Position numbers and translations under genes: made by a program. Under the pieces are notes generated by a model, which worked only from the letters and a program-made list of their open reading frames with translations, had not been told where the DNA came from and searched no databases. Shown piece by piece: positions 39,217-62,278 of a stretch of DNA of 64,000 nt (the first letter of the stretch is position 1; each line of letters starts with the position of its first letter). The DNA comes from Bacteroidales bacterium (lineage in GTDB: Bacteria; Bacteroidota; Bacteroidia; Bacteroidales; F082). The DNA lies in NCBI GenBank assembly GCA_017394865.1, contig JAFPWT010000006.1:62001-126000 (forward strand), given 5' to 3'.

Positions 39217-39870
39217 ATGACAACTATTCAGATCATTGGAATCGTCGTAGTGGCCTTGTTGGGCCTCTACGTGTTTTATTGCATTTACGATCTTGAGAAA
39301 TTCAACAAGAAGAAAGACCGTCATACCAAGAACAAAGTCTTCGCTGTACTGCTGACCATCGCGGCGCTCTTCGCGGGGCAACAGGCTTTCGCCAACATCT
39401 ACATCCCACAGAACAATAAGGAATATGCCATCGCCTACGCCGGCAACCAAACCGAAATGCCGCTGAACTTCAAGGCTGTTACGAATGGTTCTTATACCTT
39501 AACGGTGAATCCTGAGGACTTGGAGATGAACTATCTCCACCTGATTGATCACTTGACGGGTGCCGATATCAACCTGCTGGTCACCCCGAGTTACACCTTC
39601 ACAGCCAAGACCACCGACTACGCCTCACGCTTCAAGCTGGTGTTCAACGGCAATAGCGCTGAAGGCAACGACGACTTCGCTTTCATCGATGGCAACGGTA
39701 ATATCATCGTCAATGGTTCCGGAATGGGTCAAATCATCGACATGATGGGGCGCGTCATTACGAACGTAGAGACGTCATATGTCTCCACAAACGGCATGGC
39801 ACCTGGTGTTTATGTGTTACGTTTGATCAACGGAGAAAATGTAAAGACACAGAAGATCGTCATTAAATAA
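39217..39870 (+). CDS. Mini surface protein: membrane segments fused to the giants' C-terminal T9SS module
   Basis: 217 residues. A first TM segment (about 5-22) and a Lys-rich stretch (DLEKFNKKKDRHTKNK) precede a second hydrophobic, signal-peptide-like segment ending GQQAFA (about 40-58). From residue 60 the protein matches only the last 150 or so residues of the three giant proteins (NKEYAIAY, YLHLIDHLTGADINLL, YASRFKLVF, GVYVLRLINGENVKTQKIVIK). All passenger domains are absent. It may be a deletion product still coding for an exported sorting module. A degenerate palindromic repeat lies in frame at 39766. Confidence 0.75.
   Translation: MTTIQIIGIVVVALLGLYVFYCIYDLEKFNKKKDRHTKNKVFAVLLTIAALFAGQQAFANIYIPQNNKEYAIAYAGNQTEMPLNFKAVTNGSYTLTVNPEDLEMNYLHLIDHLTGADINLLVTPSYTFTAKTTDYASRFKLVFNGNSAEGNDDFAFIDGNGNIIVNGSGMGQIIDMMGRVITNVETSYVSTNGMAPGVYVLRLINGENVKTQKIVIK
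39766..39788. repeat. Degenerate in-frame copy of the palindromic repeat
   Basis: GTAGAGAC and GTCTCCAC arms separated by 7 bp, inside the sorting domain of the mini-gene (translated VETSYVST). Same codon context as the perfect copy at 54353. Confidence 0.6.
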
Positions 39871-39905
39871 TAATCGTTTTATTTTTCCAAAATAAGGTTA
39901 TTTTA

Positions 39906-39913
39906 TATCTTTG
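39906..39913 (+). promoter_or_regulatory. -7 box of the first ATPase gene
   Basis: TATCTTTG, 21 bp upstream of ATG 39935. It excludes the TTG start at 39911. Confidence 0.65.
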
Positions 39914-39934
39914 CGGAAATTTAAACGCAGTTTT

Positions 39935-41380
39935 ATGAGTAGAATCATCGGTAGAAAACAGGAAATAGAAGAGCTTCAAGAGCTTTACCGTAGCGGTAAG
40001 GCAGAGTTTGTGGCTGTGTATGGTCGCCGTCGTGTGGGCAAGACCTATCTCATCGACGAGACCTTAGGTGACCACATCACTTTCAGACATGCTGGACTGT
40101 CGCCTGTCGACGACAACAATAAGCAGAATTTGATGAAAGACCAGTTGCAGCATTTCTATCACTCGCTGTTGTCACATGGTATGAAAAAAAGCCACCAGCC
40201 CACATCGTGGTTGGAAGCCTTCTATATGCTACAGGTGCATCTTCAAAATATCGACGATGGTTCCAGACAGGTGGTGTTCATCGACGAATTGCCCTGGATG
40301 GACACACCTCGCTCCAAGTTCATCATGGCTTTGGAAGGCTTTTGGAACGGCTGGGCCTGTCATCGCCACAACCTGATGCTGGTGGTCTGCGGCAGCGCCA
40401 ACTCCTGGATGCTCGACAATCTGGTGAACAACCACGGTGGACTCTATGGCCGTGTCACCTACGAAATCAAGCTTTCTCCCTTCACGCTCAAAGAGTGTGA
40501 GGCCTATTTCAAGAGCCTGGACATCAAACTGTCGCGATACGACATTGTTCAGAGTTATATGATGCTTGGCGGTATTCCCTTTTATCTGAACTATTTCAAA
40601 CGCGGTCTCAGCCTGGCCCAGAATATCGACCATCTGTTTTTTGCTCCCAATGCAAAATTGCGCAACGAATATGACCGCCTCTTTGCCTCGGTCTTCAGCA
40701 ATCCCGAGGACATGAAGCGAATTGTGAAACTGTTGAGTACCCGGCATTCAGGCTATACCCGCCAGGAGATTCTGGCGAAGACGGGCATGGACAGCAGCGG
40801 AGCAGCCACCAAGATGCTCAACGCATTGCAAACCAGCAACTTTATATTGAAGTATCTGCCTTTTGGCAAGGGAAAACGAGAGGAAGCCTATAAACTGACA
40901 GACCCTTTCTGCCTGTTTTATCTCCGTTGGGTAGAAGGTCATGATCATCTGAATCCCGACTTTTGGATGCTCAACATGACTTCGCAGCCAGTGATTAGTT
41001 GGCGGGGCATTGCCTTCGAAGAGGTGTGCCTGACGCATATCCCGCAGATCAAGGCTGCACTGGGTGTTTCTGGTGTTTCATCCGAGCAGTCGGCATGGGC
41101 AGTGAAGGGCGATGACGATACGGAAGGCACTCAAATCGACTTGCTTATCAATCGCAAGGACAATGTTGTCAACCTTTGCGAAATGAAGTTCTACGGAGAT
41201 ACCTTCTCGGTTACGAAAGCCTACGATCGCAAGCTGGCTCACCGCCAGATTTTGCTCTCCGAGATGGTTAACCGCCGCACAGTCATTCATCCGGTACTGA
41301 TCACCACCTATGGATTAACCTACAATGAATATAGCGGAGTTTTCATGCACATATTGACGCTGGACGATTTATTCCAATAA
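39935..41380 (+). CDS. Archaeal-type ATPase with C-terminal DUF234-like nuclease-fold domain
   Basis: 481 residues from ATG 39935. Walker A GRRRVGKT (30-37), Walker B VVFIDELPW, and a winged-helix region (STRHSGYTRQEILAKTG) match ATPase_2 (PF01637). The C-terminal region (about 330-480) resembles DUF234 with a PD-(D/E)XK-like site: QIDLL...CEMKF. Function unknown; such ATPases are abundant in Bacteroidota and archaea. The first giant surface gene follows with its likely ATG 42 bp downstream, suggesting co-transcription. Confidence 0.85.
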   Translation: MSRIIGRKQEIEELQELYRSGKAEFVAVYGRRRVGKTYLIDETLGDHITFRHAGLSPVDDNNKQNLMKDQLQHFYHSLLSHGMKKSHQPTSWLEAFYMLQVHLQNIDDGSRQVVFIDELPWMDTPRSKFIMALEGFWNGWACHRHNLMLVVCGSANSWMLDNLVNNHGGLYGRVTYEIKLSPFTLKECEAYFKSLDIKLSRYDIVQSYMMLGGIPFYLNYFKRGLSLAQNIDHLFFAPNAKLRNEYDRLFASVFSNPEDMKRIVKLLSTRHSGYTRQEILAKTGMDSSGAATKMLNALQTSNFILKYLPFGKGKREEAYKLTDPFCLFYLRWVEGHDHLNPDFWMLNMTSQPVISWRGIAFEEVCLTHIPQIKAALGVSGVSSEQSAWAVKGDDDTEGTQIDLLINRKDNVVNLCEMKFYGDTFSVTKAYDRKLAHRQILLSEMVNRRTVIHPVLITTYGLTYNEYSGVFMHILTLDDLFQ

Positions 41381-41422
41381 GATACCATGATAGATAAATA
41401 TAAACAAATAACAACAGATACA

Positions 41423-44400
41423 ATGAAGCAAACCAAACTCAACATCATTTCGGCATTGCTGTTTGTGGCGGCAATGGCCATTGAGACCAGTGCCTGGGCG
41501 CAGGACTTCTCCATCGAAGCGACGTACAACAGCAGCACACACAAGACCCTGTTCACCATCGAGCGCAGCGGCAGCAGTCTGCCACAGCAGACCATCAAAT
41601 ACCGTACGGTGAACCTCTCGGCATACGCGGGAGTGCATTACACCGCAGTGAGCAACACCTATACCTTCCCTGAAAACATTACTAGCGTGCAGGTAGAGGT
41701 TAGCGAATACTCTACAAGCAGCAATGCCTTCCAATTCCAGAATGGCACCACCCGCAGCTACCGCTTCGAGGTACTCGACGTCAACGGCTTCCAGCTGGCA
41801 TACAAGGATCGCAGCATGACCACGGGTACTAGTGTGCCTTCCTCTGGTGCATACAATGTGAAGGACGTGACCATTTATTCGGACGAATACTGGGCTGATG
41901 ACGGAGGTTACGATGATAACGGTTTCAAGTCGGTGTTAAGTTCTCATTATTTCAACAATGCCGCACCTAAGGAATACTTCCAGTTGGTCGGTGCTGAGTT
42001 GCGCATGACCTTAACCATGCAAGCCAAAGAAGAGGACGACGCATACCAATATCTGCAAATCCTATTCAACGACACCGTTAACTGTGACAATAGGAATAAA
42101 TGTGACAATGGCGATCCTGGAAACCAAGTACGCTCAATTTACATGGCTGGCTTTGAGATAAAAAGCGGTGTAACGTATAGCACATATAAAAGCTACACCT
42201 TCCCCGTCATCTCTGCTGGCAATAACGAAGGTGCTAGCAATCCTTGGGGATACGGCAGCGACTTTCCTCTTGATTTACAAAAATTCAACACCCAAACCGT
42301 CATCAACTTTCGCGCCGATGATGGGCGTCTCATTCTCCCGCTGGCGAATTTCAACAAGCTCGTACTTCGCTTGAACGCCTCCGGCAGCAGCGGCAGCGAC
42401 AAATGGTGGGCCAAGAATGTCGTCGCTCACATCCAGGCTGTAGAGGCAAACAAGCCGACGCTCATCAACGGCACCGACGGCATCACCGTCTCAGCTGGCC
42501 CTTACGTCAAAGGCAACACCTTCTATATCAGCGTGCCGTTTAGCGAGATTGTGCATGTTTCAGGAGGATCCAAACAGTTGAACACCTCCTGGGGCAACGT
42601 TACCTACGTGTCGGGCGACTACACCAATGTAATTACCTTCGAAGGTACCATCAATACAACAGCAGGTACCACCTTGGCAATAACCGGCATCAATAATTGT
42701 ATGTTTAACGACTTGGCAGGTAACTACGATAACTTCAGTACCAGCAGCTTCAACAAGACCTTCAATGGCGTCACCTGCACTGAGAGCTACACCCTCGAAG
42801 CCGCCAACACCGAATTCACAGGTCTAGCTGATGAGTATGTGCTTAGCAACAATGGTCCCATCCAGCCGCACCCAACGGTGTATTTCTATAAAGGTAAGAA
42901 GGAGAGTGCCAACAAGGTGCAACTCACCGAAAACACTAACTACACCTTGTCGTGGGCCAACAACAATACTGCGGGCAACGGAAGAGTCACTGCCACAGGA
43001 ACGGGTATCTACACTGGTTCTGCCAGCACCACCTTCCCCATCCGCTGGAGCACCTACACCGTCAGTTTCCATGAAAACGGAAGCACAGCCATACCTGCCA
43101 CGGGAACAATGAGCGATCAAGCCTTCCAATATGGTGTGGCGCAGAACCTCACCGCCAACGCCTTCAGCCGTGAGGGCTTCACCTTTGCCGGATGGAACAC
43201 TGAACCTGATGGCAACGGCACCGCCTACAGCAATGAACAGTCGCTTCTCAGACTCACCCCCACTGACGGCGCCGTCATAGACCTCTACGCACAGTGGGCC
43301 CTCATTCCTTGGACAGGCAGCGGCGACAACGCCAACGACCCTTACATTATTCTATACGCCAGCCAACTCGACCTGTTGGCAACCAACGTGAACAGCGGCA
43401 ACAACTACAGCGGCAAGTTCTTCAAGTTGGACGCCGACATCACCTACGCCCACACCACCCTCTGGAACGATGCCACCAGCACCGAGAACAACTATACCGC
43501 TATTGGTACTTCAACCAATAATTTCAGAGGCACCTTCGACGGCGACAACCATACCATCAGCGGCATCCGTATCTACAATACCGATGATAATCAAGGTCTT
43601 TTCGGCTATGCCGATTATGCTACCATCAAAAACGTCATTCTCACCGACGCCCGTATCACGTGCTACAATGATGTCGGTGGCATAGCAGGCTATATCGATT
43701 ACGCCACCACCATTCAAAGCTGTCTTGTCAGCAATGCAGCCATCACAGGTAATAATAAAGTCGGTGCTGTTGTGGGCTTTAAATATAGTAGCACCGATCA
43801 TCTTATCTACAACTACTACCTTGGCTGCATTGTCAAAAAAGGCAGCACCACTTACTATACAGGTATTGGCCTTGGTCAACCACAGGGTGACTATGTAAAC
43901 GAGGTGGCAAGTCTCCACACCCTCAGCCTAAGTGATAATATCACCGCCAGCGGCGAGAGCGTCGTGATTGACAACGTCACCTACTACGCTCACCTGAGCA
44001 CCATCACCTTGGGCTATACCGGCGCAGTGGACGCTGGCTATAACGTAAACTACCAATACAACGACGGCACGGCCCACGCGGTGGTGGGCAACACCTTCAA
44101 GATGCCTGGAGCCGATGTCACTGTGAGCAGCACCTTCACCGATGTGTGGGGCATCGCTGACGGCGCCGACGGTTCACAGGAGCATCCCTATATCATCTCC
44201 GACACCACCGGCCTCAACGTATTGGCCCAATGCGTGAACGGCACCCATGGCCACACCGCCAACAGTTTCAACGGCAAGTTCTTCAAGCTGGGCGCCGATA
44301 TCACCTACAGCCACACCACCGACTGGGACGATGCCACCAGCACCGAGAACAACTACACTGCTATCGGCAATGGTTCACATTTCTTCCGCGGCACCTTCGA

Positions 44401-47400
44401 CGGCGACGGCCATACCATCAGTGGCATACGTATCTATAAGCCCACCGACGAGTATCAGGGGCTCTTCGGCTTTATCGACAATGGCACTATGAAGAATCTA
44501 GCTATTGCCGATGCCCGAATCACTGGTGATAAGAACAGTGGCGGTATCACAGGTCAGTCACAAAACGGCGATATCATGAGCTGCCATGTAGCCAACAATG
44601 TAATCATACATTCTACACACCTCAATGCCAAGTATCACGGTGGCATCGTGGGATTGATGAATGATGGTTCGATAGTGATTGGCTGCATCAGTGAAGCTAG
44701 CCTCACCATGGTTAATAATATGCCTAACAACTTGGGTGGCATTGTAGGCTATTTAAGTGCTGGTACTGTCGAAGATTGCCTTTTTACCGGTACCGTTCCA
44801 GATGGTTCATGGTGTGGTGCCATCGCCGGTTATATATACGAGGGTCTTGCAAACTTCACCAACAACTACTACACCACCGATGGCATTGGCGGCGTGAACG
44901 GCAGTGACTGCGACGGTGCCCGTCGTGCACGCACCATCACCTTGGGTGAGAATGTCGGCATTGCAGGCGACCAGACGGCATACGACGTGAGCGGCCTCAC
45001 CGCCTTTGGCACCACCGCCCTCAGCTACAATAACGGCACCTCCACTACCATCTACAGCGGTGCCACGCAAACCGTCACGCTGAGCGACGCCGCGCCACAG
45101 GGCTGCGTCGTTACCAGCTACAGTCTGAACGGCACTCCGCTTGCCGGCAACAGCTTCACCATGCCCGACAGCGACGTCACCGTGAGCGCCACTATAGGAG
45201 TGCCCTATATCGACGCCGACGGCAACGAGCGAATATGCACCGACTACACCCTCATCGAGAGCAGTACGGGCAGCACCGTCATACTCGGCGCCGTAGGAAC
45301 GGAGACATGGTATGCCGTCTGCGGCAATGTGAATATCACTGTTTCTGACGATAAGGCTATCAAGACCTATGGAGCCGTTCATCTGATTCTGATGGATGGC
45401 GCCACGCTCACCGTGGGAGGGCAATATCCCATTTTTGCTTCCGGTAGCCTCAGCATCTACGGCCAGAGCCTCGGCACAGGAAGCCTCACGGCAAGCGGAA
45501 GCGGTTCGGCCATATATGTATATGATGGTACCCTGACCATCAACGGCGGCATTGTCACCGCCACATCTTCCACCGGCAGTGGCATTTGGGCCAATAATGC
45601 CATCACTATCAATGGCGGCAACGTCAGTGCCAGCGGTAACGGCATCCAGGCTATCGGCACCCTCACCCTTGGTTGGCACAACGCCTCCGACCGTATTTAT
45701 GCCAGCAGCTATTATGGCTATAGTGGTGTCGCGGTCAAGAGCGGCCAGTACCTCAGCGACGGCACGGCGGGTTATAGCGGCACCCTCAGCACCACTCAGG
45801 TGAACGCCCTCGCCGGCAAGACCCTGCAGCCCGCCTTTGCGCTGACGTTGCCGAAATACGTCAACGCCACCTCAGGAGCGCTCGTACAGGAAGGTCACAC
45901 CGCCTATGCACAGGCTGGCGCCAATGTCACCATCGCCGGCGAAGGCTGCACCATCACGAATGTCACCGTGGGCGGCGAAGCAGCCACCGACAACGGCGAC
46001 GGCACCTGGAGTTTCATCATGCCTGCCAACGATGTCACCGTGAGCGCCACAGTAACCGCAATCGACTTCACCACCGGCCACGCCGGCACCGAGGGCGACC
46101 CATACATCATCATGTATCGCTCCCAGCTCGACCTGCTGGCTACCCGCGTGAACGGCGGCGAATCCTACGACGGCAAGTTCTTGAAGCTTGGTGCCGACAT
46201 CGCTTACGACCCGAATGACCTTGACGACAATGGCGAGAACTACACTGCCATAGGCACTAAGGTTAATAATTACAGATATTTCAATGGTTCCTTCGACGGA
46301 GACGGCCACATCGTCAGTGGCATCCGCATCAACAAGACGGGCCAAACCGATGCCGATAAAAAGCAGGGGCTCTTCGGTTATGTATATAACGCTTTCATCA
46401 AAAACGTCGTACTTAGCGACGCCAGCATCACTGGCTACACACAGGTTGGCGGCATCGTGGGAGACATTTTTTTTAATAACACCATACAGAACTGCCTTGT
46501 GTTGAATTCACATATTACCGCAGCTAATAATACTACTAATAAAGGTGCCATTGCCGGCTTTTATACTTCCTCTCTTACCCTCACCGACAACTACTACTAC
46601 AACTGCACTGTGGATGGTGTCTCCACCAATGTAGGTGTCGGCGGCAATAGTGTCTCCGACAGCGACGGCGCCCGCTGCGTCAACAAGCTCACCTTGTGCG
46701 AGCACGTCAGCACCACGCCGGCAGCGGCAGTCACCTACCAGGGCAAAGGTTATTACCTGCCAGGCACCAGCGTCACGCTGAGCGTCGAGGAGGGCTACAC
46801 CCTCAACGACAGCTACTCCGTGAAGGACGCCAACAACAACGACATCACCCTCACTGGCGGCGACACCTTCGAGATGCCTGCAAGCGATGTCACCGTGAGC
46901 ACCGATATCACCATCGCCACCATGGATGGCAGCGGCACCGAGGACGACCCGTGGATTATCATGTACCGCAGCCAGATGGACCAGTTGGCTATAAGTGAAA
47001 TCAACAACGGCGAATACTACCAGTTGGGCAGAGATCTCACCTACAGCTATGAAGGCCTTAGTGAGACCGAGAGCAACTACACACCAATCCGCGTTAACGA
47101 GGGCGGTCACTTTGACGGTGCAGGCCATACCATCAGTGGCATACGCATCTATCCTTATGACGATTTTTATGATGTCAACAAAGGACTTTTCAGTTTAAAC
47201 TATGGTACCGTGAAGAATGTCACCCTCACCGATGCTATAATCACAGGCGAGGACTATGTCGGTGGTATTGTGGGAAGCAATACTAAAAACGGCCTCATCG
47301 ATAGTTGCCACGTCACCAGCACCGTCATCATCAAGGCTTATGGCTATTCATCAGATTACCACGGCGGTATCTCGGGTGATAATGCTGGCGATGTAGGTAA

Positions 47401-48955: not shown

Positions 48956-49240
48956 ATGAAAAAATTAGCAATCACTTTAGCAATTGTTCTTGGAATGACC
49001 CTCAGTGTTTCGGCGCAGTGGGGTGGCGGACTGTTTCAACGCGGCGCTGTCAGCGACGAGGAATACTATGGCGCAAGCTATGATTACCAGACCCGTACCG
49101 ACGGACTCCTCAACTTGCCCTCACAGCATGGAACATCCAACGACGAGCAGGCGCCCCTCGGCGGCGGTGCCTTGCTGCTCATCGGCTTTGGTGCGGCTTA
49201 TGCGGTGAAAAAACAATCGTTCAAAAAAATGTCGGATTGA
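48956..49240 (+). CDS. Small signal-peptide/TM protein with PLGGGALLLIGFGAAY motif
   Basis: 94 residues. A signal peptide (MKKLAITLAIVLGMTLSVSA) is followed by a 40-residue polar region rich in Tyr, Asp and Thr, then APLGGGALLLIGFGAAY and a basic tail (VKKQSFKKMSD). Motif, hydrophobic stretch and basic end are arranged like a C-terminal sorting signal or a simple membrane anchor; I know of no named family. It starts 18 bp after giant 1, so it is probably co-transcribed. Decayed copies of its C-terminal half lie at 60337 and about 62029. Confidence 0.7.
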   Translation: MKKLAITLAIVLGMTLSVSAQWGGGLFQRGAVSDEEYYGASYDYQTRTDGLLNLPSQHGTSNDEQAPLGGGALLLIGFGAAYAVKKQSFKKMSD

Positions 49241-49251: not shown

Positions 49252-49259
49252 TATCTTTG
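49252..49259 (+). promoter_or_regulatory. -7 box of the second ATPase gene
   Basis: TATCTTTG, 44 bp upstream of ATG 49304. Confidence 0.6.
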
Positions 49260-49303
49260 CAACCGCCATTAAGTTAATGGGCGTTTAATTAGAGTTGTTC
49301 GAT

Positions 49304-50620: not shown

Positions 50621-50635
50621 AAACAGATACAACAG

Positions 50636-50758
50636 ATGAACAGAAAGCAAACCCTCTACAAAGTCCTTGTGGCGATCATGATTTTCGTTGGTATGGCCTT
50701 CGGGCAACAGGCCATGGCCGAGTGGAGGCCCTCAATTGACATTATATATAAACAATGA
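50636..50758 (+). CDS. Orphan signal-peptide ORF coupled to giant 2
   Basis: 40 residues. Basic start (MNRKQTLYK), hydrophobic core (VLVAIMIFVGMAF) and GQQAMA cleavage-like end, then ten more residues to a TGA that overlaps the ATG of giant 2 (ATGA at 50755-50758). The core and GQQA-A end resemble the second hydrophobic segment of the mini-gene (LLTIAALFAGQQAFA). Probably the decapitated start of a lost surface gene that now serves as a coupled leader ORF. Confidence 0.5.
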   Translation: MNRKQTLYKVLVAIMIFVGMAFGQQAMAEWRPSIDIIYKQ

Positions 50759-53700: not shown

Positions 53701-54462
53701 ACCATCGGCGGCAAGCCATTCTACCGCATGAACGAACTCGGCACCGAAATCATCGCCGCCGCCAATCCCACCATCGCCGCCATGGAAGGCATCTTCGTGG
53801 TGGCCAACACGAACGGCGAAACCATAACCTTCGCCGATCCTACGAGAGGCCGCGAGAGCGAGGAACGCATCATCATCAACCTTTGCAACAACAACACCGC
53901 CGTCATCGACCGTGCCATCGTGCGCCTCGGCGAGGGCGAGGCACTGCCCAAAATGCAAATCCGCGACAACAACACAAAGATTTATTTATCGCAGGGCGGC
54001 AAGGACTACGCCATCGCCAACGCCGAAACCACAGGCGAAATCCCCATCAGTTTCAAGCCCTCGGAAAACGGCACTTACATCATTTCGGTAAATCCCGAAG
54101 GCATGGAGATGGACTATTTGCATTTGATTGACAATCTAACTGGCATGGATGTTAACCTACTGGCTTCACCTTCTTACACCTTCAATGCCAAAACTACGGA
54201 TTATGCCTCCCGTTTCAAATTAGTGTTTTCCGCCAATGGAAACGCTGACAGCGAAGAGGTCCCCTTTGCCTTCCTCAGCAACGGCAACATCATCGTCAAT
54301 GGTGACGGAATCGTCCAGGTGATTGACATGATGGGACAGATTATCGTTCAACGTAGAGACGGTGCATGCACCGTCTCTACAGACGCAATGGCCCCCGGCG
54401 TGTATGTGTTGCGGTTGATTAACGGCGATAAAGTAAAGACACAAAAAATTGTCATCCAATAA
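50755..54462 (+). CDS. Giant surface protein with duplicated Gly-rich beta-helix unit and T9SS module (giant 2)
   Basis: 1235 residues. An uncleaved-looking basic start precedes a signal peptide (VMTLFMMLAMTLTASA). A first domain with two DYIHL(L/Y)Y segments (about 40-205) is followed by two copies of a large unit (about 209-545 and 550-855). Each has LTGTGG, WPGINCLGNAVIVLGGGTTN, a series of SSCGNITINGGTVTATGG..GAGIGSG turns suggesting a right-handed beta-helix, and a Flg_new repeat ending TLYAKW or TLYARW. The shared C-terminal module starts at about 861 (AIAGYGEST, YDLYRFNQNAEQEWENW) and ends TQKIVIQ. A perfect 28-bp palindrome lies in frame at 54353. Confidence 0.87.
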   Translation: MSKTAKTTKHNNSLARTVMTLFMMLAMTLTASATDFITDVMVLGDDNKTSFYSQLSELTAQGWIDINYDLNESCGAGTDYIHLLYKKQSSSGNTGVPITDFYIRTGKYPPGSLTHGGRTYYLVPYDGSDDFIDSEGDLNNHAGGDYIHLYYTKDALANSHGVTGITFNTTQSGAVGANGGGTGYDLNEGCGSQSAYVYMHIATTSGANVVTLSSGSGNVQLQNGHILTGTGGEDTRVTITDGATVTLNGVNITAIANDYNHMWPGINCLGNAVIVLGGGTTNTIRGGDNSSGIYVPENETLTIQGSGTLNVTGGSNGAGIGSNFIQSSCGNITINSGTVNAAGGNYAAGIGSSHGSNSSCGNITINGGSVTATGGTRGAGIGSGEYKSSCGSIFINGGTVTATGGENAAGIGSGFNNSSCGSISITQGVTRVTATKGSGCNNAIGAGYNSSCQSVTIGGVETGSITQSPFTTFPYTVAFNANGGTGTMTNMNFMYNVAQNLTANAFTNGGRQFLGWATSANGQKVYNDGQSVSNLTQTAGATVTLYAKWANTVTLTQQIGEVLLQNGETLTGTGGQNTRVKIADGATVTFSGVNITAIVDDEDHIWPGINCLGNAVIVLGGGTTNTINGGYYSSGIYVPENKTLTIQGSGTLNATGGKHGAGIGGGRKSSCGNITISGGSVTATGDFGTAGIGSGYYQSSCGNITINGGTVTANGGDYSAGIGSGRNYSPCGSISITQGVTRVTATKGYNCDNAIGASINSSCQSVTIGGVETGSITQSPFTTFPYTVAFNANGGTGTMANQVFMYNVAQPLSANSFTCTGYTKDGWATTLNGPKVYNDGQSVTNLTETTVTLYARWNALKAIAGYGESTTSGWNLIALPIEGSIAAEAVGNIFSAAEYDLYRFNQNAEQEWENWKSHANNDDHYHFNLESGRGYLYASQAYTTLVFCGTPYSGNGQVTLHKTDGARLGGWNLIGNPFITSKTIGGKPFYRMNELGTEIIAAANPTIAAMEGIFVVANTNGETITFADPTRGRESEERIIINLCNNNTAVIDRAIVRLGEGEALPKMQIRDNNTKIYLSQGGKDYAIANAETTGEIPISFKPSENGTYIISVNPEGMEMDYLHLIDNLTGMDVNLLASPSYTFNAKTTDYASRFKLVFSANGNADSEEVPFAFLSNGNIIVNGDGIVQVIDMMGQIIVQRRDGACTVSTDAMAPGVYVLRLINGDKVKTQKIVIQ
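51541..51593 (+). repeat. Intragenic duplication, first copy marker
   Basis: A 53-bp tract beginning TGGCCAGGCATCAATTGTTT is repeated identically, or nearly so, at 52570-52622 in the same gene. It marks a duplication of about 0.93-1.03 kb (offset 1029 bp here, 934 bp at the 3' marker near 52122/53056), the second copy having about one Gly module fewer. Confidence 0.85.
54353..54380. repeat. 28-bp palindromic repeat, in frame in giant 2
   Basis: Perfect palindrome with arms GTAGAGACG/CGTCTCTAC and core GTGCATGCAC. Translated RDGACTVST within the sorting domain, where giant 1 has RDANDRIGIEGL. Confidence 0.92.
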
Positions 54463-54606: not shown

Positions 54607-57600
54607 ATGAAACTTCTACCAAGAATGAAAAACAACATAACCAGGGCAGCTGTCATGCTGCTGCTTACATTTATGGCCTCCGCCACGGCGTGGGCTGATC
54701 CCGACCTCGTCATCCGTTCGGCAGCCGATTGGAACACCTTCGCTGACAATGTCAACAACGGCACGTCTTATCAAGGTCAGACTGTGGTTTTGGCCGCAGA
54801 CATCAGTGTAACAACGATGGTGGGCATCAATACTCAACCCTTCGATGGAACCTTCGACGGTTGCGGACACACGCTCAATCTCAACCTCACAAACGGTGGC
54901 TATTACACTGCCCCTTTCAGTAAAATACAAGGAGCTACCATCAAAAATCTTAAGACAACTGGAACGGTGACCGGTGGTATGCATTGCTCCGGACTTGTGG
55001 GCATAGCGTTCCTAACCAACCTCATTCAAAACTGCGAAGTGGCGGTTTCAGTGGTTTGCAGCGGTGGCAATCACTCTCACTGCGGCGGTATTGTAGGACA
55101 CGGTGGGGACTCAAACACCACAATCCGCGACTGTCTCTTTTCGGGCAGTATAGAAGGTGCCACCCAAAAAACAGGCATCATCTATGGTTGGGCCAACAAT
55201 GGCACACATACCCTCATCAATTGCCTGGCAGCTGGCACTTACATCAATTGCGGTGGATTGGACATCATACAGCCAAGAGGAACTGTCAATGTCTCCAACT
55301 GTTACAAGACGCAGAACGTCGGTAATTATGGCACCTACACCACTGCTACTGGCGAAACGCTGAGAGCCCTGCTCGGCGACGGCTGGGAGGTGAGCGGCAA
55401 CAATGTGGTGCCGGTGATGGTCAACAGCTTTGAGGTGCCGAACGTATCATATTTTGCCTACAACACGACGACACAGACATTTGAAACACTTACGGCGAAT
55501 GTTTGCAGGATAGTCACCTCCAGCACCACAACGATGGGAGTTGCCAATACCGAGACGTGGTATGTGGTGAACAACACCGTCACCGTGAACAGCAGCCGTA
55601 TCGAGGTGCTCGGCACGGTGAATTTGATTCTTGCCGACGGCAAGACATTCAGGGCCGAAAAAGGTCTCCATGTGCCCGATGGCGTGACCCTCAACATCTA
55701 CGGCCAGAGCAGCGGCACAGGCAAACTCTTCTGCGCCTCTGAGGCAGACTATCTTGCCGGTATTGGCGGCAACAATGACGAAACAAGCGGCACCATCAAC
55801 ATCCATAGTGGCAGAATTGAGGCATACGGCAACTATCTGTCGGCGGCCATTGGCGGTGGTCGCGCCGCCAATGGCGGTACTACAACCATCTATGGCGGCA
55901 CAGTCAATGCCACAGGCGGCACCTATGGCGCAGGCATTGGCGGCGGTGCAAACGGTAACGGTGGCACCATTACTATCATCGGTGGCACGGTCATAGCCCA
56001 AGCAGGAACCGTGGACGGAAATGACAACAGCCAGGCCATCGGCTCTGGTGCCATTGGTTCTGGTGGTACCCTGATGCTTGGTGACATGAAAGTGTACGCC
56101 AGTGCGGAAGCCACAAATCCCGTTACATACGCCAACCGCGTAAGCACCTGCCATTCCAAATACGCGAAACTTGTGCCATGCACCGACCATAACTACGTCA
56201 ACGGCGTATGTAACTATTGCGGTGCCATGCCCAACGTTCCTGTGACGTATCTTGCTTATCAGACGACGACACATACATTTGCGGAGCAGACGGTGAGCGA
56301 AACCACGTTGGTCGATGAATTTACCACAACGATGGGGGCCGACAACACCGAGACGTGGTACGCAGTGAGAAGAGGCGTTTCAAACGACAACCGCATCGAG
56401 GTCAGGGGTACGGTACACTTGATTCTCTGCGACGGCAAGACGCTGACCGCCTCGAAAGGCATCACTGTCAATAACGGCAACACATTGATCATCTACGGGC
56501 AGAGCGGCGGCACCGGTGCGCTGAATGCCACAGGCTTTGAGGCAGGTGGTAACATTTACGAATGTGCAGCCATAGGAAGCACAGGACGCACATCTCTTGG
56601 AGATATTACCATTCATGGAGGTCGTATCACTGCCACTGGCGTTGCATGGACGGCAGGCATTGGCGGTGGTATCGGCAGTGGCGAAGGCTCGATTACTATC
56701 TATGGAGGTACCATCAACGCCACAGGCAACAGCGGAAACTCAGAGGCCATCGGCCACGGTGCCGACGGTGCCAATGTCACAAGAACCCTTATCGACGGAC
56801 TACGCGTGACCACTGGCAGCAATACGACTCCTGTTGCGTATAGCGACCGATTATCAGGTCTTAGTCAAAAAGTAGCCAGAGTTGAGCCTTGTACGGAGCA
56901 CCATACCACCACCGATCATTGCGACTATTGCGGCATCACCTGCTACGCTGTCGCTTACGACGGCAACAATGCCACAAACGGAACAGTTCCCGTTCCCAAC
57001 ACGACCTATCTACCTGGTGCGACGGTTACTGTGCTTGGCAATACGGCTAATCTGGAACGCACGGGCTACACCTTCGCCGGATGGAATACCAAGGCCAACG
57101 GCAGCGGCACCACCTACACCGCTGGTGCGACCTTCACCATCAATGGCACCACCACGCTCTACGCCAAGTGGGCACCCATTACCTATACCGTCCGCTTCCA
57201 TAAGAACCACGACGATGCGACTGGCACAATGAGCGACTTGACGCTGACTTATGATGTCGCACAACCTCTCACCACCAATGCCTTCATCCGCAATGGCTAT
57301 GCCTTAGTGGGATGGAGCACCATCGCCAACGGTACAGTGGCCTATACCGACGGTCAGAGCGTAAGCAATCTCGCCACCGAGCAGAATGTCGTGGTCAACC
57401 TCTATGCCCAGTGGACCGAACTCTACACCATCGGCTACGACCTCGCTGGCGGCAGCGTAGCGACACCCAACCCCACTACCTACACAGTATTGAGCAATGC
57501 CATCACTCTCGTCAATCCTACCCGCGAAGGCTACACCTTCACGGGATGGACGGGCACCGGCCTCACCGAGCCGACGATGACGGTCACCATTCCTGCCGGC

Positions 57601-60240
57601 TCCACGGGCAACCGAGAATACACCGCCACTTGGATAATGACCTCGATGACACTGAGGAACACCGCCGACAACAGCGCAATCATTGCCGAAGCCAACGAAA
57701 AGTTGCTTGAAAGTGTAACTCTCGCCGATCGCACTCTCTACCGCAACGGCGACTGGAACACGCTCGTCCTGCCTTTTAACCTCAACAGTCTCACAGGCAC
57801 ACCGCTCCAGAGATTCAAATTGAAGACGCTCTCAAGTTCGACCTACAGCGACGGTACACTCACGATGAACTTCGCAGACGCCTCAACCATCGAGGCTGGC
57901 AAGCCCTACATCGTAAGATATGAAGAAGCCGACCTCGTCATCAGTTCTACTGCCGACTGGAACAGCTTTGTCAATAAAGTAAAAAATGGCACAACTTACC
58001 AAGGCAAGATAGTGAAACTCGCCGCCGACATCACTATTTCTCAAGAGGTGGGCACATACAACAAGTTTTTCAAGGGTACTTTTGACGGTGGCGGACATAC
58101 GCTGACCCTCAACATCACATACACTAACGCTAATAGTTGCTTGGGACCTTTCCGCTACATCGAAGGTGCCACAATTAAAAACCTCTTTGTTGATGGAACC
58201 ATCACCTCAATGGGCCATGGTATTAGCGGCTTAGTGGGATCTTCCAGAGGGACGGTAACCATTTCAAACTGCGTAGTCAGTGCCAGCATCACCAGCACCA
58301 TGAGCAACGATGAAGGCAGAAATGGCGGCTTTGTCGGAGAGATAAGGACTGGTAGTGTCACCATCAACAACTGTGCATTTAATGGGAGACTGCTTGGTCC
58401 AAATTGCACAACAAATGGCGGTTTCATAGGAGATAAATATGACTCCAGTTACCCTGCCGTGTTCAACAACTGCTTGTTTGCTCCTTCCCAAGTCACCATG
58501 GGTTCCTCCAATAGCGGTACATACATCAACACGAAATACAACAACCCTGTCAACACTACATTCAACAACAGCTATTATAAAACACAATTCGGCTCAAAGC
58601 AGGGAACAAAAACTACTTATACAGGCACAGCGCTTAAAAATCAGCTTGGCAATGGCTGGGAAGTTGTCAATGGCGATGTGGTGCCGAAGATGGAGAGAAC
58701 CCCCAGCAACATCGTGAATCCCGTGTTCACCAATGTCACCATCAACGAAGCCACAACCAATGTTAGCACCACCTACGCCGACTTCATCGGCAGCTATGCG
58801 CCTTTTAACAATGATGCTCTGCTTCTCGATGCCCTCAACCCCAACGGAGACGCACAACATGCCGCCCTCAACATTACCGCCCCCACCGCACCAACGGGCT
58901 TCACCTTTGGCGGCTGGTACTCCGACGCCGAACTAACGGCTCCTGTCACTACCATCCCCTTTGCCACCAACGGCACGGTCACGCTCTATGCCAAATGGAT
59001 ACCCACGCTCACCGTGGCAGGTTACGGCACAGGCACCGACAAATGGGTGTTTATCGCCTCACCGGTTGCGGGAAGCATCGCACCTGATGATGTCGTCAAC
59101 CTTTTAGGCTCGCAGATTTCCGAAAATCCTGTGTTGTACAATTACGACCTCTACCGCTTCAACCAAAGCCCCGCCATGAGCAACGACGGTCGTTACTTGG
59201 AATGGGAAAACTATCACCAGCACAACACACAGCAAGATCCTTTCCTGTTGGTTAATGGCCAAGGCTACCTCTATGCCCGGCAGAACAATGTCAACCTGTT
59301 TTTCAATGGCACGTTGAACACTGGCAATGTGATGAGCGTAAACCTTGACTACGATGGAAGCGCACGGCTCAAAGGCTACAACCTCGTGGGCAACCCGTTC
59401 CCGTGCGAGGCCTACGTCAACAGGCCGTTCTACAGGATGAACGATGCAGGCAACAACATTGAACCCGTGGCGAACTATGATTCCTACACTCCAACCACCA
59501 TCCCACCCTACACCGGCATCATCGTGAAAGCCGACGGAGCCAACGAGAGCGTCACCTTCAGCACGTCGGCACCTGCAACCTCGACAGGCAACCACGGCAA
59601 CCTCGCCATTACTTTGTCGCAACAGACAGAAACCACTCGTGGCAGTTCCACAACGGTAACCCACGACAAGGCTTTCGTCAGTTTCAACGAAGGCAGTCGG
59701 TTGGGGAAATTCTATTTCGGCGAACAGAACGGCAACATCTATATCCCGCAGGGCGGTGAGGAATATGCTATCGTTTCCGTTGGTGGTAGAGACGCAATGC
59801 ATTGCGTCTCTACAGAGATTCCGGTCAATTTCAAGGCCACGAAGGACGGCACCTACACCCTCACGGTGAATCCCGAGGAAACGGAGATGGCCTATCTGCA
59901 CTTGATCGACAACCTCACGGGCACCAACGTGGACCTGCTCCAGACCCCGAGCTACACCTTCGAGGGCAAGACCACCGACTACGCCTCGCGTTTCAAATTG
60001 GTGTTCAGCGCACGGAAGAGCATCGAGGAGATTGGCGATGAAGGTTTCGCGTTCATCCACGATGGCGAGATCATCATCGAGGCTGATGGCATCATCCAGG
60101 TGATTGACATGCTGGGCCGTGTCCTTGTCAACCGCGATGCCAACGAGCGCATCACCACCGACGGCCTCGTCGGCGGGGTATATGTATTGAGATTAATTAA
60201 TGGCGAAATTGTGAAGACGCAAAAAATTGTTGTGAAATAA
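54607..60240 (+). CDS. Giant surface protein with GLUG-like, beta-helix and InlB-type repeats and T9SS module (giant 3)
   Basis: 1877 residues; ATG 54625 is an alternative start. A signal peptide ends ATAWA. A GLUG-like domain (about 35-280: DGTFDGCGHTLNLNL, CGGIVGHGG), two Gly-rich beta-helix units (about 300-740: YGGTVNATGGTYGAGIGGG), three Flg_new/InlB_B-type repeats (about 775-1010: FAGWNTKANGSG, TLYAKW), then a second GLUG-like domain (about 1110-1375) that repeats the first (WNSF..KVKNGTTYQGK). The shared C-terminal module (about 1471-1877) ends TQKIVVK. A perfect 28-bp palindrome codes GRDAMHCVST near residue 1726. Unlike the other giants, no ATPase lies directly upstream; one lies downstream on the opposite strand. 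Confidence 0.86.
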   Translation: MKLLPRMKNNITRAAVMLLLTFMASATAWADPDLVIRSAADWNTFADNVNNGTSYQGQTVVLAADISVTTMVGINTQPFDGTFDGCGHTLNLNLTNGGYYTAPFSKIQGATIKNLKTTGTVTGGMHCSGLVGIAFLTNLIQNCEVAVSVVCSGGNHSHCGGIVGHGGDSNTTIRDCLFSGSIEGATQKTGIIYGWANNGTHTLINCLAAGTYINCGGLDIIQPRGTVNVSNCYKTQNVGNYGTYTTATGETLRALLGDGWEVSGNNVVPVMVNSFEVPNVSYFAYNTTTQTFETLTANVCRIVTSSTTTMGVANTETWYVVNNTVTVNSSRIEVLGTVNLILADGKTFRAEKGLHVPDGVTLNIYGQSSGTGKLFCASEADYLAGIGGNNDETSGTINIHSGRIEAYGNYLSAAIGGGRAANGGTTTIYGGTVNATGGTYGAGIGGGANGNGGTITIIGGTVIAQAGTVDGNDNSQAIGSGAIGSGGTLMLGDMKVYASAEATNPVTYANRVSTCHSKYAKLVPCTDHNYVNGVCNYCGAMPNVPVTYLAYQTTTHTFAEQTVSETTLVDEFTTTMGADNTETWYAVRRGVSNDNRIEVRGTVHLILCDGKTLTASKGITVNNGNTLIIYGQSGGTGALNATGFEAGGNIYECAAIGSTGRTSLGDITIHGGRITATGVAWTAGIGGGIGSGEGSITIYGGTINATGNSGNSEAIGHGADGANVTRTLIDGLRVTTGSNTTPVAYSDRLSGLSQKVARVEPCTEHHTTTDHCDYCGITCYAVAYDGNNATNGTVPVPNTTYLPGATVTVLGNTANLERTGYTFAGWNTKANGSGTTYTAGATFTINGTTTLYAKWAPITYTVRFHKNHDDATGTMSDLTLTYDVAQPLTTNAFIRNGYALVGWSTIANGTVAYTDGQSVSNLATEQNVVVNLYAQWTELYTIGYDLAGGSVATPNPTTYTVLSNAITLVNPTREGYTFTGWTGTGLTEPTMTVTIPAGSTGNREYTATWIMTSMTLRNTADNSAIIAEANEKLLESVTLADRTLYRNGDWNTLVLPFNLNSLTGTPLQRFKLKTLSSSTYSDGTLTMNFADASTIEAGKPYIVRYEEADLVISSTADWNSFVNKVKNGTTYQGKIVKLAADITISQEVGTYNKFFKGTFDGGGHTLTLNITYTNANSCLGPFRYIEGATIKNLFVDGTITSMGHGISGLVGSSRGTVTISNCVVSASITSTMSNDEGRNGGFVGEIRTGSVTINNCAFNGRLLGPNCTTNGGFIGDKYDSSYPAVFNNCLFAPSQVTMGSSNSGTYINTKYNNPVNTTFNNSYYKTQFGSKQGTKTTYTGTALKNQLGNGWEVVNGDVVPKMERTPSNIVNPVFTNVTINEATTNVSTTYADFIGSYAPFNNDALLLDALNPNGDAQHAALNITAPTAPTGFTFGGWYSDAELTAPVTTIPFATNGTVTLYAKWIPTLTVAGYGTGTDKWVFIASPVAGSIAPDDVVNLLGSQISENPVLYNYDLYRFNQSPAMSNDGRYLEWENYHQHNTQQDPFLLVNGQGYLYARQNNVNLFFNGTLNTGNVMSVNLDYDGSARLKGYNLVGNPFPCEAYVNRPFYRMNDAGNNIEPVANYDSYTPTTIPPYTGIIVKADGANESVTFSTSAPATSTGNHGNLAITLSQQTETTRGSSTTVTHDKAFVSFNEGSRLGKFYFGEQNGNIYIPQGGEEYAIVSVGGRDAMHCVSTEIPVNFKATKDGTYTLTVNPEETEMAYLHLIDNLTGTNVDLLQTPSYTFEGKTTDYASRFKLVFSARKSIEEIGDEGFAFIHDGEIIIEADGIIQVIDMLGRVLVNRDANERITTDGLVGGVYVLRLINGEIVKTQKIVVK
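59786..59813. repeat. 28-bp palindromic repeat, in frame in giant 3
   Basis: Identical to the intergenic copy at 5641. It adds residues between AIVSV and EIPVNFKA, where giant 1 has only AEAKG and giant 2 AETTG. Confidence 0.93.
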
Positions 60241-60336: not shown

Positions 60337-60456
60337 AGCCTGTCCGGTACCCACGGCGAGACCAACGATCAAGGTGCACCCTTAGGCAGCGGTGCCTTGC
60401 TGCTCATTGGCTTTGGCGCCGCCTACTTCGTGGGCAAGAAACGCAAAGAGGAATAA
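60337..60456 (+). pseudogene. Decayed copy of the small PLGGGALLLIGFGAAY protein
   Basis: Reading from CTT 60337: LLSLSGTHGETNDQGAPLGS, then GALLLIGFGAAYFVGKKRKEE and a TAA. It aligns with the C-terminal half of the 94-residue protein at 48956. Signal peptide and N-terminal half are gone, replaced by the composite palindrome. Confidence 0.75.
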
Positions 60457-60519: not shown

Positions 60520-61860
60520 TCAAAGAAACATCGTCATCGCCACTGGCAACAAGGTTGTGGCTCCGTCCTTACGATAGTCTTTTGTGTAAACTAAGTATCG
60601 CTCGCCCACACGGCTGGAAAACTTCTCGCAGAATGCATCCAGAGACGCATGGCTCTTATAGCCCGACGACTTCACCTCCAGCGGCCACAGTTTGGCCCCT
60701 CTTGACAGCAGGAAATCCACCTCATAGTTGTGTTTTCCGCTCTCTGTAGGCCAAGTATGGTAAAAAAGCCTGTTACCTGTAGCTGTCAGCACCTGTGCCA
60801 CAATATTCTCATACACATAGCCCAGGTCTGCCGACAGCTTGTCGCTCAACAACTTCTGGTAAATCACGTTCTCCGTCACATCCTTGTCCCAGAATGCCAG
60901 TGTGATAAACAATCCCGTATCGTTCAGGAACATTTTGTAGCGTCCCATATCCTCATGCAGCGACAGCCCCACATTTGGGTCATCAGCATGATGCGAGAAA
61001 AGCACCACTTTCGAGTCCTCCATGTCCTGAAGCAACTCTTCCACCCGATCCTGCTTACCTTGCTCAATCACACTCGAAATTTGATAGCGTGAGGCATTCT
61101 TGTTCAGTTGGGCAGGTACGGCATAAAACATCCTCGTGGCCTTTCCTGTAGGGTCAATCTTGCGGAAATCGTCAGCATACAACTCGATGATCTCGCGCTT
61201 CACCATATCCACAGCGCTCAGGTTGTTTGTGTCCAGATATTCGTTCACCGCCTGTGGCATACCACCCACCAGCATATACAGCCGGAAATCTCGCAGCAAC
61301 TTGCGCATCACCCCATCGCCCAGCGGACGTTTAGCTTCGTAAGCCTCGCGTAGCAAATCTACCGTCACCGTGTCTCCCAGTGCCCAGCGGAACTCCTCGT
61401 AGTCCATCGGATACATCTCAATCCTAGTCTCCTCGCTTGGAATGCGGATTTTCTTCGTTTTTTTCTTGATAGAAATCAGCGAGCCCGTCTCGATATAGTC
61501 ATAGCGATGGTCTTTCACAAGCTTTTTAATAGCCTGCCGAGCCAACGGGCAATCCTGTACCTCGTCGAAGATAATTACTGACTTTCGCGGTGTAAGCCTG
61601 GTATTGTAATGATACTGAAGTTGGAACAGCAGATCATCCAAGTCTGATATATCCTCGAACAAATCTTTCACCTCCTGGTCCGCTTCCGTGAAATCTATCA
61701 AAATATATGACTCATATTCCCTCTTGGCGAACTCCTCTGCCAAAGTCGATTTGCCTACACGTCTGGCACCTTTTATCAGGAGGGCGGTTTTCCCGTCACG
61801 CTCCTGTTTCCACTGTAACATCTTCTCGTACAGCTTTCTTCTGAATATTCTTTCTGCCAT
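60520..61860 (-). CDS. AAA_14/DUF4143 ATPase
   Basis: 446 residues from ATG 61860 (MAERIFRRKL); the longer ORF from 61911 crosses the -7 box. Walker A GARRVGKS (31-38), Walker B SVIIFDEVQD, sensor-like YIETGSLISIKKK, and YPMDYEEFRWALGD typical of AAA_14 (PF13173). The C-terminal DUF4143 part has LYMLVGGMPQAVNEYLD, NDTGLF and a PD-(D/E)XK-like YEVDFLL...PLEVKS. Function unknown. Three direct repeats lie immediately upstream, suggesting an operator. Opposite in strand to the giants. Confidence 0.87.
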   Translation of the reverse strand: MAERIFRRKLYEKMLQWKQERDGKTALLIKGARRVGKSTLAEEFAKREYESYILIDFTEADQEVKDLFEDISDLDDLLFQLQYHYNTRLTPRKSVIIFDEVQDCPLARQAIKKLVKDHRYDYIETGSLISIKKKTKKIRIPSEETRIEMYPMDYEEFRWALGDTVTVDLLREAYEAKRPLGDGVMRKLLRDFRLYMLVGGMPQAVNEYLDTNNLSAVDMVKREIIELYADDFRKIDPTGKATRMFYAVPAQLNKNASRYQISSVIEQGKQDRVEELLQDMEDSKVVLFSHHADDPNVGLSLHEDMGRYKMFLNDTGLFITLAFWDKDVTENVIYQKLLSDKLSADLGYVYENIVAQVLTATGNRLFYHTWPTESGKHNYEVDFLLSRGAKLWPLEVKSSGYKSHASLDAFCEKFSSRVGERYLVYTKDYRKDGATTLLPVAMTMFL

Positions 61861-61881
61861 ATCAGTTCGGTTTTGACGGTG

Positions 61882-61889
61882 CAAAGATA
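61882..61889 (-). promoter_or_regulatory. -7 box of the DUF4143 ATPase gene
   Basis: Minus strand TATCTTTG, 21 bp upstream of ATG 61860. It fixes the start. Confidence 0.65.
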
Positions 61890-61895
61890 TCACTT

Positions 61896-61973
61896 TTGCC
61901 GAAATTCTCAAAATTTATTTTATTAAAATTGCCGAATATCTCACAATTTCATGCTATATTGCCGAAATTCTCA
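61896..61973 (-). repeat. Three operator-like direct repeats upstream of the ATPase
   Basis: On the minus strand TGAGAATTTCGGCAA at 61896-61910 and 61959-61973, and TGAGATATTCGGCAA at 61929-61943: starts 33 and 30 bp apart, about three helical turns. The nearest unit occupies the -33 region of the promoter. Confidence 0.75.
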
Positions 61974-62028
61974 TCTTTTAAAATCACTATTTTGCCCATT
62001 TCCTCATAATATTTCAATAATGTCCAGA

Positions 62029-62139
62029 CTCCCCTCGGCGGCGGTGCCTTGTTGCTCATTGGCTTTAGCGCCGCCTACCTCGTGGGCAAGAACTTCCGCT
62101 CCTCCACCAGGGAGCGGAGGCCTTTTTTTGAGGTATAAC
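62029..62139 (+). pseudogene. Second decayed copy of the small PLGGGALLLIGFGAAY protein
   Basis: QTPLGGGALLLIGFSAAYLV then GKNFRSSTRERRPFFEV and a stop. It matches only the C-terminal motif and TM stretch of the 48956 protein, with no start or signal peptide. An ATG at 62021 falls in another context and I do not credit it. Confidence 0.65.
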
Positions 62140-62170
62140 TTGGACAATTCCCATGGTTGGAAAAAAGTTT

Positions 62171-62178
62171 TATCTTTG
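62171..62178 (+). promoter_or_regulatory. -7 box of the truncated ATPase remnant
   Basis: TATCTTTG, 19 bp before ATG 62198; the promoter survives although the gene does not. Confidence 0.5.
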
Positions 62179-62197
62179 TAGGCAAATTATTTGCGTC

Positions 62198-62278
62198 ATG
62201 GGGTTTTTCATCAATGTCGGAAACGCTGGGTTCCAAAGAGTCCTCAACAGCGAGTATGTGTGGGACCTCTATGGATAG
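62198..62278 (+). pseudogene. 5' remnant of a DUF1703-type AAA-ATPase gene
   Basis: 26 codons: MGFFINVGNAGFQRVLNSEY then VWDLYG and a stop. The first 20 residues match the conserved start of AAA-ATPase-like/DUF1703 proteins of Bacteroidota (usually ...GNxGFxxxxNGEYVDKTGLI). The match breaks after EYV, where the fimbrillin-like ORF begins on the other strand: a deletion or insertion junction. Confidence 0.65.

Follow-up and report, generated by a model that had tools for sequence, protein, structure and literature searches.

What brought three ATPase genes in between three giant surface-protein genes is the question raised by a locus in a rumen bacterium of the Bacteroidales. The locus belongs to the window analysed here, a stretch of 64,000 nucleotides (genome G000, contig C16, positions 62001–126000) from an assembly of 2.08 Mb in 19 contigs that is 73% complete. 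A first-pass annotation of this DNA had described an array of giants and ATPases on 23 kb; the array is real, with three giants (giant1 to giant3) and three ATPases (ATPase1 to ATPase3) located as given in Table 1. Taking all parts together, we think it probable that the locus grew, that the ATPase genes entered it separately, that ATPases of these types bind repeat arrays in front of their own genes, and that they possibly form mobile units.

The ATPases match two candidate defence families

ATPase1 and ATPase2 were assigned to the family PDC-S27 (ATPase_2 type) by the corresponding hidden Markov model (HMM) of PADLOC, with 653.4 and 147.5 bits, respectively. ATPase3 was assigned to PDC-S01 (AAA_14 + DUF4143) with 321 bits over profile positions 3–430 of 439, and its tested relatives likewise match the HMMs over nearly their full length. 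Alignments of the ATPase3 and ATPase1 types show no variation in the P-loop, the Walker B motif or the C-terminal D...ExK site. The same motifs can be read from the sequence of ATPase2, so that all three proteins carry the P-loop and the PD-(D/E)XK-like C-terminal site initially ascribed to them. In the ATPase3 type, E351, E380, D382, E395 and K397 are invariant in 16 sequences, and the alignment together with a model of the predicted nuclease places the invariant D and ExK in an alpha-beta core, as expected of the PD-(D/E)XK fold.

The structure model of ATPase3 (mean predicted local distance difference test score, pLDDT, 87; predicted template modelling score, pTM, 0.87) would, on our reading of its secondary structure, consist of AAA+, helical and winged-helix-like parts followed by a predicted C-terminal nuclease. 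When the nuclease piece was modelled alone (pLDDT 83.5) and searched against the PDB, a McrBC chain (6hz4_N) was the only match with E <0.001. Weaker matches were 3fov (unknown function), McrBC, Bax1 and, further down, Can2, with unrelated folds below. We take 6hz4_N to be McrC, the PD-(D/E)XK subunit, whose AAA+ partner is McrB. ATPase3 would then display the same pairing of motor and nuclease as McrBC, which supplies the best PDB match of its nuclease domain; here, however, both parts reside in one chain, and the TM-scores are only 0.43 and 0.37. The 50 matches listed for the whole model included ORC/Cdc6, MuB, STAND and other AAA+ proteins, with TM-scores of at most 0.37 by query length. 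Sequence-based searches of solved structures returned no match for the ATPase3 alignment and two weak ATPase matches (2fna, 2qen) for the ATPase1 alignment.

According to passages of two papers, PDC-S01 is the most frequent individual locus in rumen genomes (PMC13356809) and the fourth most common defence across prokaryotes, and most phage-defence candidates (PDCs) still await experimental validation (PMC12988326). For PDC-S01, these passages of PMC13356809 and PMC12988326 make no mention of upstream phased arrays, of shared blocks ending at the gene or of flanking repeats; for PDC-S27, they do not mention that an operator-like region is often repeated behind the stop codon. Phased arrays before genes of either family, and the unit anatomy described below, were also absent from the literature searched, outside of which most subscription papers lay. 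The families are thus known as phage-defence candidates, and the array and unit anatomy would be the new part.

Phased repeat arrays upstream of the ATPase genes

Upstream of ATPase3, three copies of a 14-mer lie beside the box TATCTTTG, which, like the motif TAnnTTTG, we take to belong to a −7-like promoter type. In the 240 bp preceding 132 distinct ATPase genes, repeat lags peak at 32–33 and 51–53 bp, with the doubled value of 66 bp, and little of this is seen in 500 controls. Counted gene by gene, a phase of 31–34 bp was found for 41/132 ATPases against 20/700 control genes, and one of 51–54 bp for 25/132 against 19/700, divergent neighbours of ATPases having been taken out of the controls. 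An off-peak band of 41–44 bp did not differ (6/132 and 17/700), and shuffled ATPase upstream regions gave 0/396 and 1/396 for the two phases. When the ATPases were grouped at 50% identity, the 33-bp type occurred in 17 of 47 clusters and the 52-bp type in 11. By best phase, 33-bp arrays precede mainly DUF4143-type (PDC-S01 type) genes and 52-bp arrays mainly ATPase1-type genes, where the unit is often an inverted repeat. Most arrays of the 33-bp type (32 of 41) have their end no more than 30 bp away from where a −7-like box begins.

The best 14-mer identity between two arrays exceeds background only from about 60% protein identity upwards; below this value it hardly differs from that of pairs lacking a BLAST match. 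Since the period is kept while the sequence changes, the arrays look like private binding sites. A different account is that the ATPases are ordinary, horizontally spread defence genes, in agreement with the status of both families in PADLOC, that the arrays are operators of another regulator, and that the flanking repeats described below arose when donor DNA, ending in stretches that match the conserved 3′ ends of genes, recombined homologously. We regard this account as possible but rather unlikely. A phase that is kept while the repeat sequence varies with the ATPase is better explained by self-binding than by one shared regulator. We also considered whether the ATPase3 repeat could be a dispersed element resembling repetitive extragenic palindromes (REP); with at most one mismatch it occurs at only 3 places of the genome, 2 of them at ATPase3, and this candidate was rejected.

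Phased arrays are also found in viral and plasmid records. In IMG/VR, the first two scans gave 58 loci; arrays were sought in 44 of them, the others being duplicates or having too short an upstream DNA. The 33-bp phase was present in 9/13 loci of the ATPase3 type not marked as duplicates (L311 and L314 share one array), while the other DUF4143 type, where phased, shows 40 or 75–78 bp more than 33. Among plasmids, 8 of 50 listed hits were analysed, and a phase of 33 or 66 bp scored above the cut-off in 7 of these loci, from Bacteroidota, Bacillota and Actinomycetota. The plasmids bearing arrays come from Segatella hominis, Agathobacter rectalis, Segatella copri, Collinsella, Vescimonas, Prevotella and Parabacteroides. 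The Vescimonas plasmid scores higher at 42 bp than at 33 bp, that of Parabacteroides is phased at 66 bp only, and the homologue from Agathobacter rectalis (L324) is preceded by four near-perfect repeats. No array above the cut-off was found at the Treponema plasmid locus obtained with a second query. On plasmid pTS1 of Treponema saccharophilum (L330:1-4230), the DUF4143-type ATPase (L187 query) lies 96 bp behind hsdR, with an annotated DNA methyltransferase gene on its other side.

Extent of the DNA shared between related ATPases

ATPase1 and its copy in the sister species G010 are identical at 479 of 481 residues, against 68% DNA identity for the neighbouring AraC gene. Their DNA is 100% identical over 40008–41567 (1.56 kb) and 93–95% identical in the preceding 120 bases. 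To the left of this block, identity is 52–80% per 60 columns through the end of the giant module; on the right-hand side, 300 bases suffice for a fall from 95% to about 33%. A near-100% ATPase1 exists in only two of 99 genus genomes, namely this one and G010, the next best being 70%. ATPase1 has, to judge from these identities, moved recently. A misjoining of contigs from metagenome-assembled genomes (MAGs) at the repeated modules and the shared ATPase1 block could also place a 100% block between divergent flanks, and long repeats in a 19-contig assembly invite such errors. However, the window species and G010 each have their own flanks on both sides of ATPase1, and the arrays recur in plasmid records of named organisms; we consider this explanation highly improbable.

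ATPase3 and the relative L026 have a block in common that is bounded by the outermost repeat on one side and by the stop codon on the other. Block ends were compared for pairs of 72–92% identity; with reused genes removed, this covered 14 ATPase pairs out of 25 and 73 control pairs out of 195. In all 14 ATPase pairs, the shared DNA ends within 145 bp of the start codon. Both block ends lie within 200 bp of the gene in 11/14 ATPase pairs against 14/73 control pairs. More than 300 bp of shared upstream DNA was seen in 0/14 against 44/73, and more than 300 bp downstream in 3/14 against 46/73. Members of PDC-S01 and PDC-S27 at this identity are shown by these comparisons to sit as solo units. If the ATPases were ordinary defence genes, the continuation of the ATPase1 block into giant1 would find a ready explanation in simple gene conversion, but the fact that the DNA shared at 72–92% identity mostly ends at the array and the stop codon would not.

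Direct repeats flanking the ATPase genes

Direct repeats across the gene were found for 38/125 ATPases against 10/600 other genes, and outer direct repeats for 13/125 against 2/600. With the ATPase1 type (PDC-S27), the operator-like region is often repeated right behind the stop codon. In the window, the end of a small gene is present on both sides of ATPase3, the two copies being 90% identical. In 9 of 19 hand-picked cases, a count that has no chance baseline, the repeats coincide fully or partly with a neighbouring gene's 3′ end (L145, L148, L182, L196, L198, L232, L275, L307 and the window); in L158 they lie within 50 bp of one. The genes concerned include a type IX secretion system (T9SS) gene (L196) and a permease-like gene (L232). 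In L275 (1054-3854), the ATPase lies directly behind a phage gene that looks like a terminase gene, and a 118-bp copy of the 3′ end of this gene follows the ATPase stop codon. In IMG/VR, 7 of the 43 loci from the first two scans that were checked for flanking repeats score at least 24, and in the PDC-S27 scan flanking direct repeats score at least 25 in four loci (L331, L332, L334 and L340).

Of 38 codons compared in L275, 4 differ synonymously and 2 otherwise between the two copies; in L307 the figures are 5 and 2 of 18. As these differences are mostly synonymous, the copies resemble alleles of different genomes more than a fresh target duplication, and this is what recombination of donor DNA carrying an ordinary defence gene would produce.

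Association between ATPases and giants

The first-pass annotation had proposed that a cassette of ATPase, giant and small signal-peptide/transmembrane protein is repeatedly gained and lost, and had raised the possibility that the ATPases act on the repeats of the surface genes. Several observations speak for such a link. In the window's own genome, 4 of 12 ATPases touch a giant carrying the shared C-terminal module, and 6/22 neighbour slots hold a module gene (17 module places in 2.08 Mb); these 12 leave out one above-cut-off PF01637 match at C4:30321 and all below-cut-off matches. Three of the four, however, belong to this one cluster and are therefore not independent. L059 and L125, too, have an ATPase with a module giant directly behind it in the same orientation, and the ATPase of L144 precedes a long open frame that is truncated where the contig ends. 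In other genomes, counted over 74 of 75 module loci, the immediate neighbour is an ATPase in 4/134 slots against 1/283 at ranks 2–4, a weak excess (Fisher p 0.04).

The count centred on ATPases gives a different picture. Around 82 genus ATPases, a T9SS gene is next in 8/153 slots against 28/396 at ranks 2–4 (p 0.56), and a module gene in 2/153 against 5/396. The sample consisted of the best-scoring entries of longer lists, entries near contig starts being skipped. These figures cover all 82 ATPases after rescue of missed genes; a first count, which lacked the 13 missed by the gene caller, gave 5/129 against 22/336. For ABC transporters taken as controls (36 of 40, 4 being missed), a T9SS gene is next in 0/70 slots and found in 10/183 at ranks 2–4. 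The adjacency predicted earlier thus appears weakly when counted from the modules and not at all when counted from the ATPases, and a general link between ATPases and T9SS genes was rejected. Furthermore, the ATPases concerned best match four different PADLOC models, the relative L019 has a giant and a small protein without any ATPase, and the unit common to ATPase3 and L026 stops at the ATPase3 stop codon. A moving three-part cassette, or ATPases that act on giant-gene repeats, is therefore very unlikely; of the cassette, only the pair of giant and small protein stands.

Since an excess is seen around modules only, and a weak one at that, the ATPases are most simply read as independent passengers in a recombining locus. 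The alternative that the annotation had also offered, of selfish or defence-like passengers, agrees with the PDC-S27 and PDC-S01 matches, with shared DNA that ends near the gene and with the recent move of ATPase1.

A model for the ATPase units

We propose that the ATPase would assemble on its own array and repress its own promoter until released by some signal, after which the nuclease would act on invading or target DNA. Less surely, array and gene would together be a minimal unit, mobile or selfish, that inserts downstream of gene 3′ ends and would leave a copy of such an end on its other side. This anatomy suggests autoregulated single-gene mobile units, whose binding and movement we infer from sequence. 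Free-standing homing endonuclease genes are solo nuclease genes that lie next to a conserved neighbour and spread with short co-converted flanks. The ATPases resemble them as solo nuclease genes next to a conserved gene, and differ from them in being AAA+ ATPases with a private phased array and a nuclease that is predicted. A bolder version, which we put forward tentatively and hold to be doubtful, is that PDC-S01 and PDC-S27 were originally minimal single-gene mobile elements of about 1.5 kb, gene and private helically phased array being the whole element. The ATPase would bind the array both as its own end and as its operator, the nuclease would open target sites at gene 3′ ends of chromosomes and phages, and the copy of the gene end brought along would keep the host gene whole.

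Several points weigh against the model. Most ATPases have no array above the cut-off; in the window itself, ATPase1 and ATPase2 lack one and the ATPase3 array is unevenly spaced (30 and 33 bp). The −7-like box is also present in 59/68 ATPases without an array. In IMG/VR, where 15 of 17 PDC-S27 loci from the third scan were analysed, 51–54 bp is the best phase above the cut-off in 0/15, and a best phase above it was obtained only for L336–L338, at 56 bp; the 52-bp phase is therefore established for the genus only. The array cut-off, the lag bands and the search pattern for the small protein were chosen after part of the data had been viewed. As to the units, block ends no farther than 200 bp from the gene on either side were also seen in 14/73 control pairs. 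At more than 92% identity, the shared flanks are often much longer (more than 6 kb in, for instance, L207/L209 and L189/L190), which counts for ordinary defence genes; such flanks are expected of the same insertion in close relatives and also of ordinary inheritance. About a tenth of the cases have outer direct repeats, which at 65–100% identity are for the most part not recent target duplications. The shared unit is mostly the ATPase alone and showed neither a transposase nor an integrase, no search of the flanks for transposase families having been made. Finally, the named relatives are MAGs.

If the model applies, a private array at about three helical turns names the DNA that each such ATPase should bind, so that the function of the PDC families could be probed with straightforward binding and reporter assays. 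Should the units be capable of moving on their own, the tallies of 'defence systems' for many genomes would include selfish genes.

Probable origin of the locus

The named relatives were found via the giant module and are Bacteroidales-type MAGs, many of which derive from samples of rumen and gut. The left flank of L019 (RUG14679) corresponds to window positions 37001–39300 (KASIII end and AraC), at 80.9% DNA identity, and between the conserved flanks L019 carries a single giant of 2110 amino acids (aa) and one small protein, without ATPase. L024 has AraC and a relative of giant1 without ATPase1. In the sister species G010 (L143/L018), AraC is followed by a giant of 2234 aa that is intact, then by ATPase1 and the beginning of a gene related to giant1. 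As the intact giant occupies the place of the window's mini-gene, the latter is a remnant of that giant; together with the small-gene remnants, this supports the repeated gain and loss suggested by the annotation. The 24 kb of the window would most simply have grown from one unit of giant and small protein. The locus would have started as AraC, giant, small protein and outer-membrane protein, as in L019, and would have grown via recombination among similar giants, while three different AAA+/PD-(D/E)XK ATPase genes would have entered it separately. The swelling of one such pair to three giants would show how these surface proteins diversify.

From 38 to 64 kb, the genes are arranged as AraC, mini-gene, ATPase1, giant1, small protein, ATPase2 and orphan signal peptide in the left half, followed by giant2, giant3, a small-gene fragment, ATPase3 (on the minus strand), a second small-gene fragment, a 225-aa gene and an outer-membrane barrel in the right half (Table 1). 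The ATPase–giant gaps of 42 and 134 bp hold, provided that giant1 starts at the ATG at 41423. No TAnnTTTG box was found in 41371–41430, before giant1, or in 50601–50760, before giant2. Read-through from the ATPase promoters is therefore possible, and giant1 and giant2 may be transcribed in this way. A seat among surface genes may thus give ATPases a transcript shared with giant1 and giant2, with no shared function.

Table 1. Features of the locus and their coordinates in the window.
Feature	Position	Strand	Remarks
AraC-family regulator, left flank	37958..39070	+	Pfam HTH_18; order kept in L018, L019, L024
Mini-gene, giant remnant	39217..39870	+	Giant N-terminus, then last ~160 aa of module
Block common to window and G010	39888..41567	+	93–100% identity; 100% over 40008–41567
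−7-like box TATCTTTG of ATPase1	39906..39913	+	
ATPase1	39911..41380	+	ATPase_2 (PF01637), C-terminal D..ExK site, PDC-S27; ATG start 39935
Giant1, surface protein	41387..48937	+	2516 aa; likely start ATG 41423
Small signal-peptide/transmembrane protein	48956..49240	+	PID-CTERM-like; 17.5 bits, below cut-off 26
ATPase2	49295..50620	+	ATPase_2 (PF01637) + DUF234, PDC-S27; ATG start 49304; TATCTTTG box 49252–49259
Orphan signal-peptide open reading frame (ORF)	50636..50758	+	40 aa; stop codon overlaps giant2 start codon
Giant2	50755..54462	+	1235 aa
Giant3	54607..60240	+	1877 aa; promoter-like boxes in upstream gap, nearest at 54555
Decayed small-protein gene, 3′ part	60345..60456	+	
Direct-repeat copy, downstream side of ATPase3	60379..60440	.	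Small-gene 3′ end
ATPase3	60520..61911	-	AAA_14-DUF4143 (PF13173 + PF13635), PDC-S01; ATG start 61860
−7-like box TATCTTTG of ATPase3	61882..61889	-	
Array of three 14-bp repeats	61896..61972	-	61896–61909, 61929–61942, 61959–61972; spacing 33 and 30 bp
Direct-repeat copy, upstream side of ATPase3	62031..62092	.	Small-gene 3′ end; 90% identical to 60379..60440
27-codon ORF	62198..62278	+	Perhaps first codons of another ATPase, unconfirmed
Outer-membrane beta-barrel gene, right flank	63227..64000	-	Kept in L019, 84.4% DNA over 761 bp

Giants, small proteins and other features

A C-terminal module of about 370 aa recurs in all three giants, and the mini-gene retains its last ~160 aa; the sharing of this module noted at first is thereby confirmed. 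The own genome holds 17 places of the module and 99 type IX tail matches at E ≤0.001. Giants and mini-gene appear to end in a tail of the type IX sorting domain (TIGR04183/PF18962). The giants, scored with Pfam, reach only 17.3–22.2 bits, below the cut-off of 27, and the mini-gene, compared with TIGR04183 of NCBIfam, reaches 31.8 bits, above the cut-off of 23; what sets these proteins apart from the known domain is the distinct module. Module giants are often in tandem (L018–L092), the next gene being another module gene in 17/134 slots.

Giant and small protein are a true pair. A small ORF with a PLGxG motif, a transmembrane (TM) segment and a KR end (PLGxG-TM-KR) lies within 700 bp behind 25/119 module genes against 1/1602 other genes, 2 of the 25 being in the window, where the copies were seen before the pattern was written. 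Small signal-peptide proteins with a PLGSG-TM-KR end are located at 48956–49240, at L019:11149-11409 and at L079:11142-11417. The proteins of the window and of L079 score 17.5 and 17.1 bits with PID-CTERM (NF046080), short of its 26 bits, and the small protein is, on these scores, PID-CTERM-like only.

Upstream of ATPase1, the sequence shows a short palindrome (39879–39895) just before the box, without a repeat array. The stop–start overlap between the orphan signal-peptide ORF and giant2 is a layout that could couple their translation. The first codons of a fourth ATPase had also been proposed; this comes down to the 27-codon ORF, 21 aa of which have no Pfam match; it may be the start of a gene of another Bacteroidales ATPase family, unconfirmed. 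The 225-aa gene (62269–62946) between ATPase3 and the barrel gene has a weak fimbrillin-like match (E 0.036), and no counterpart of it is present in the gene map of L019. At the start of the window (1–8997), three further large T9SS proteins are encoded in tandem (C16:63893, 67401 and 70785).

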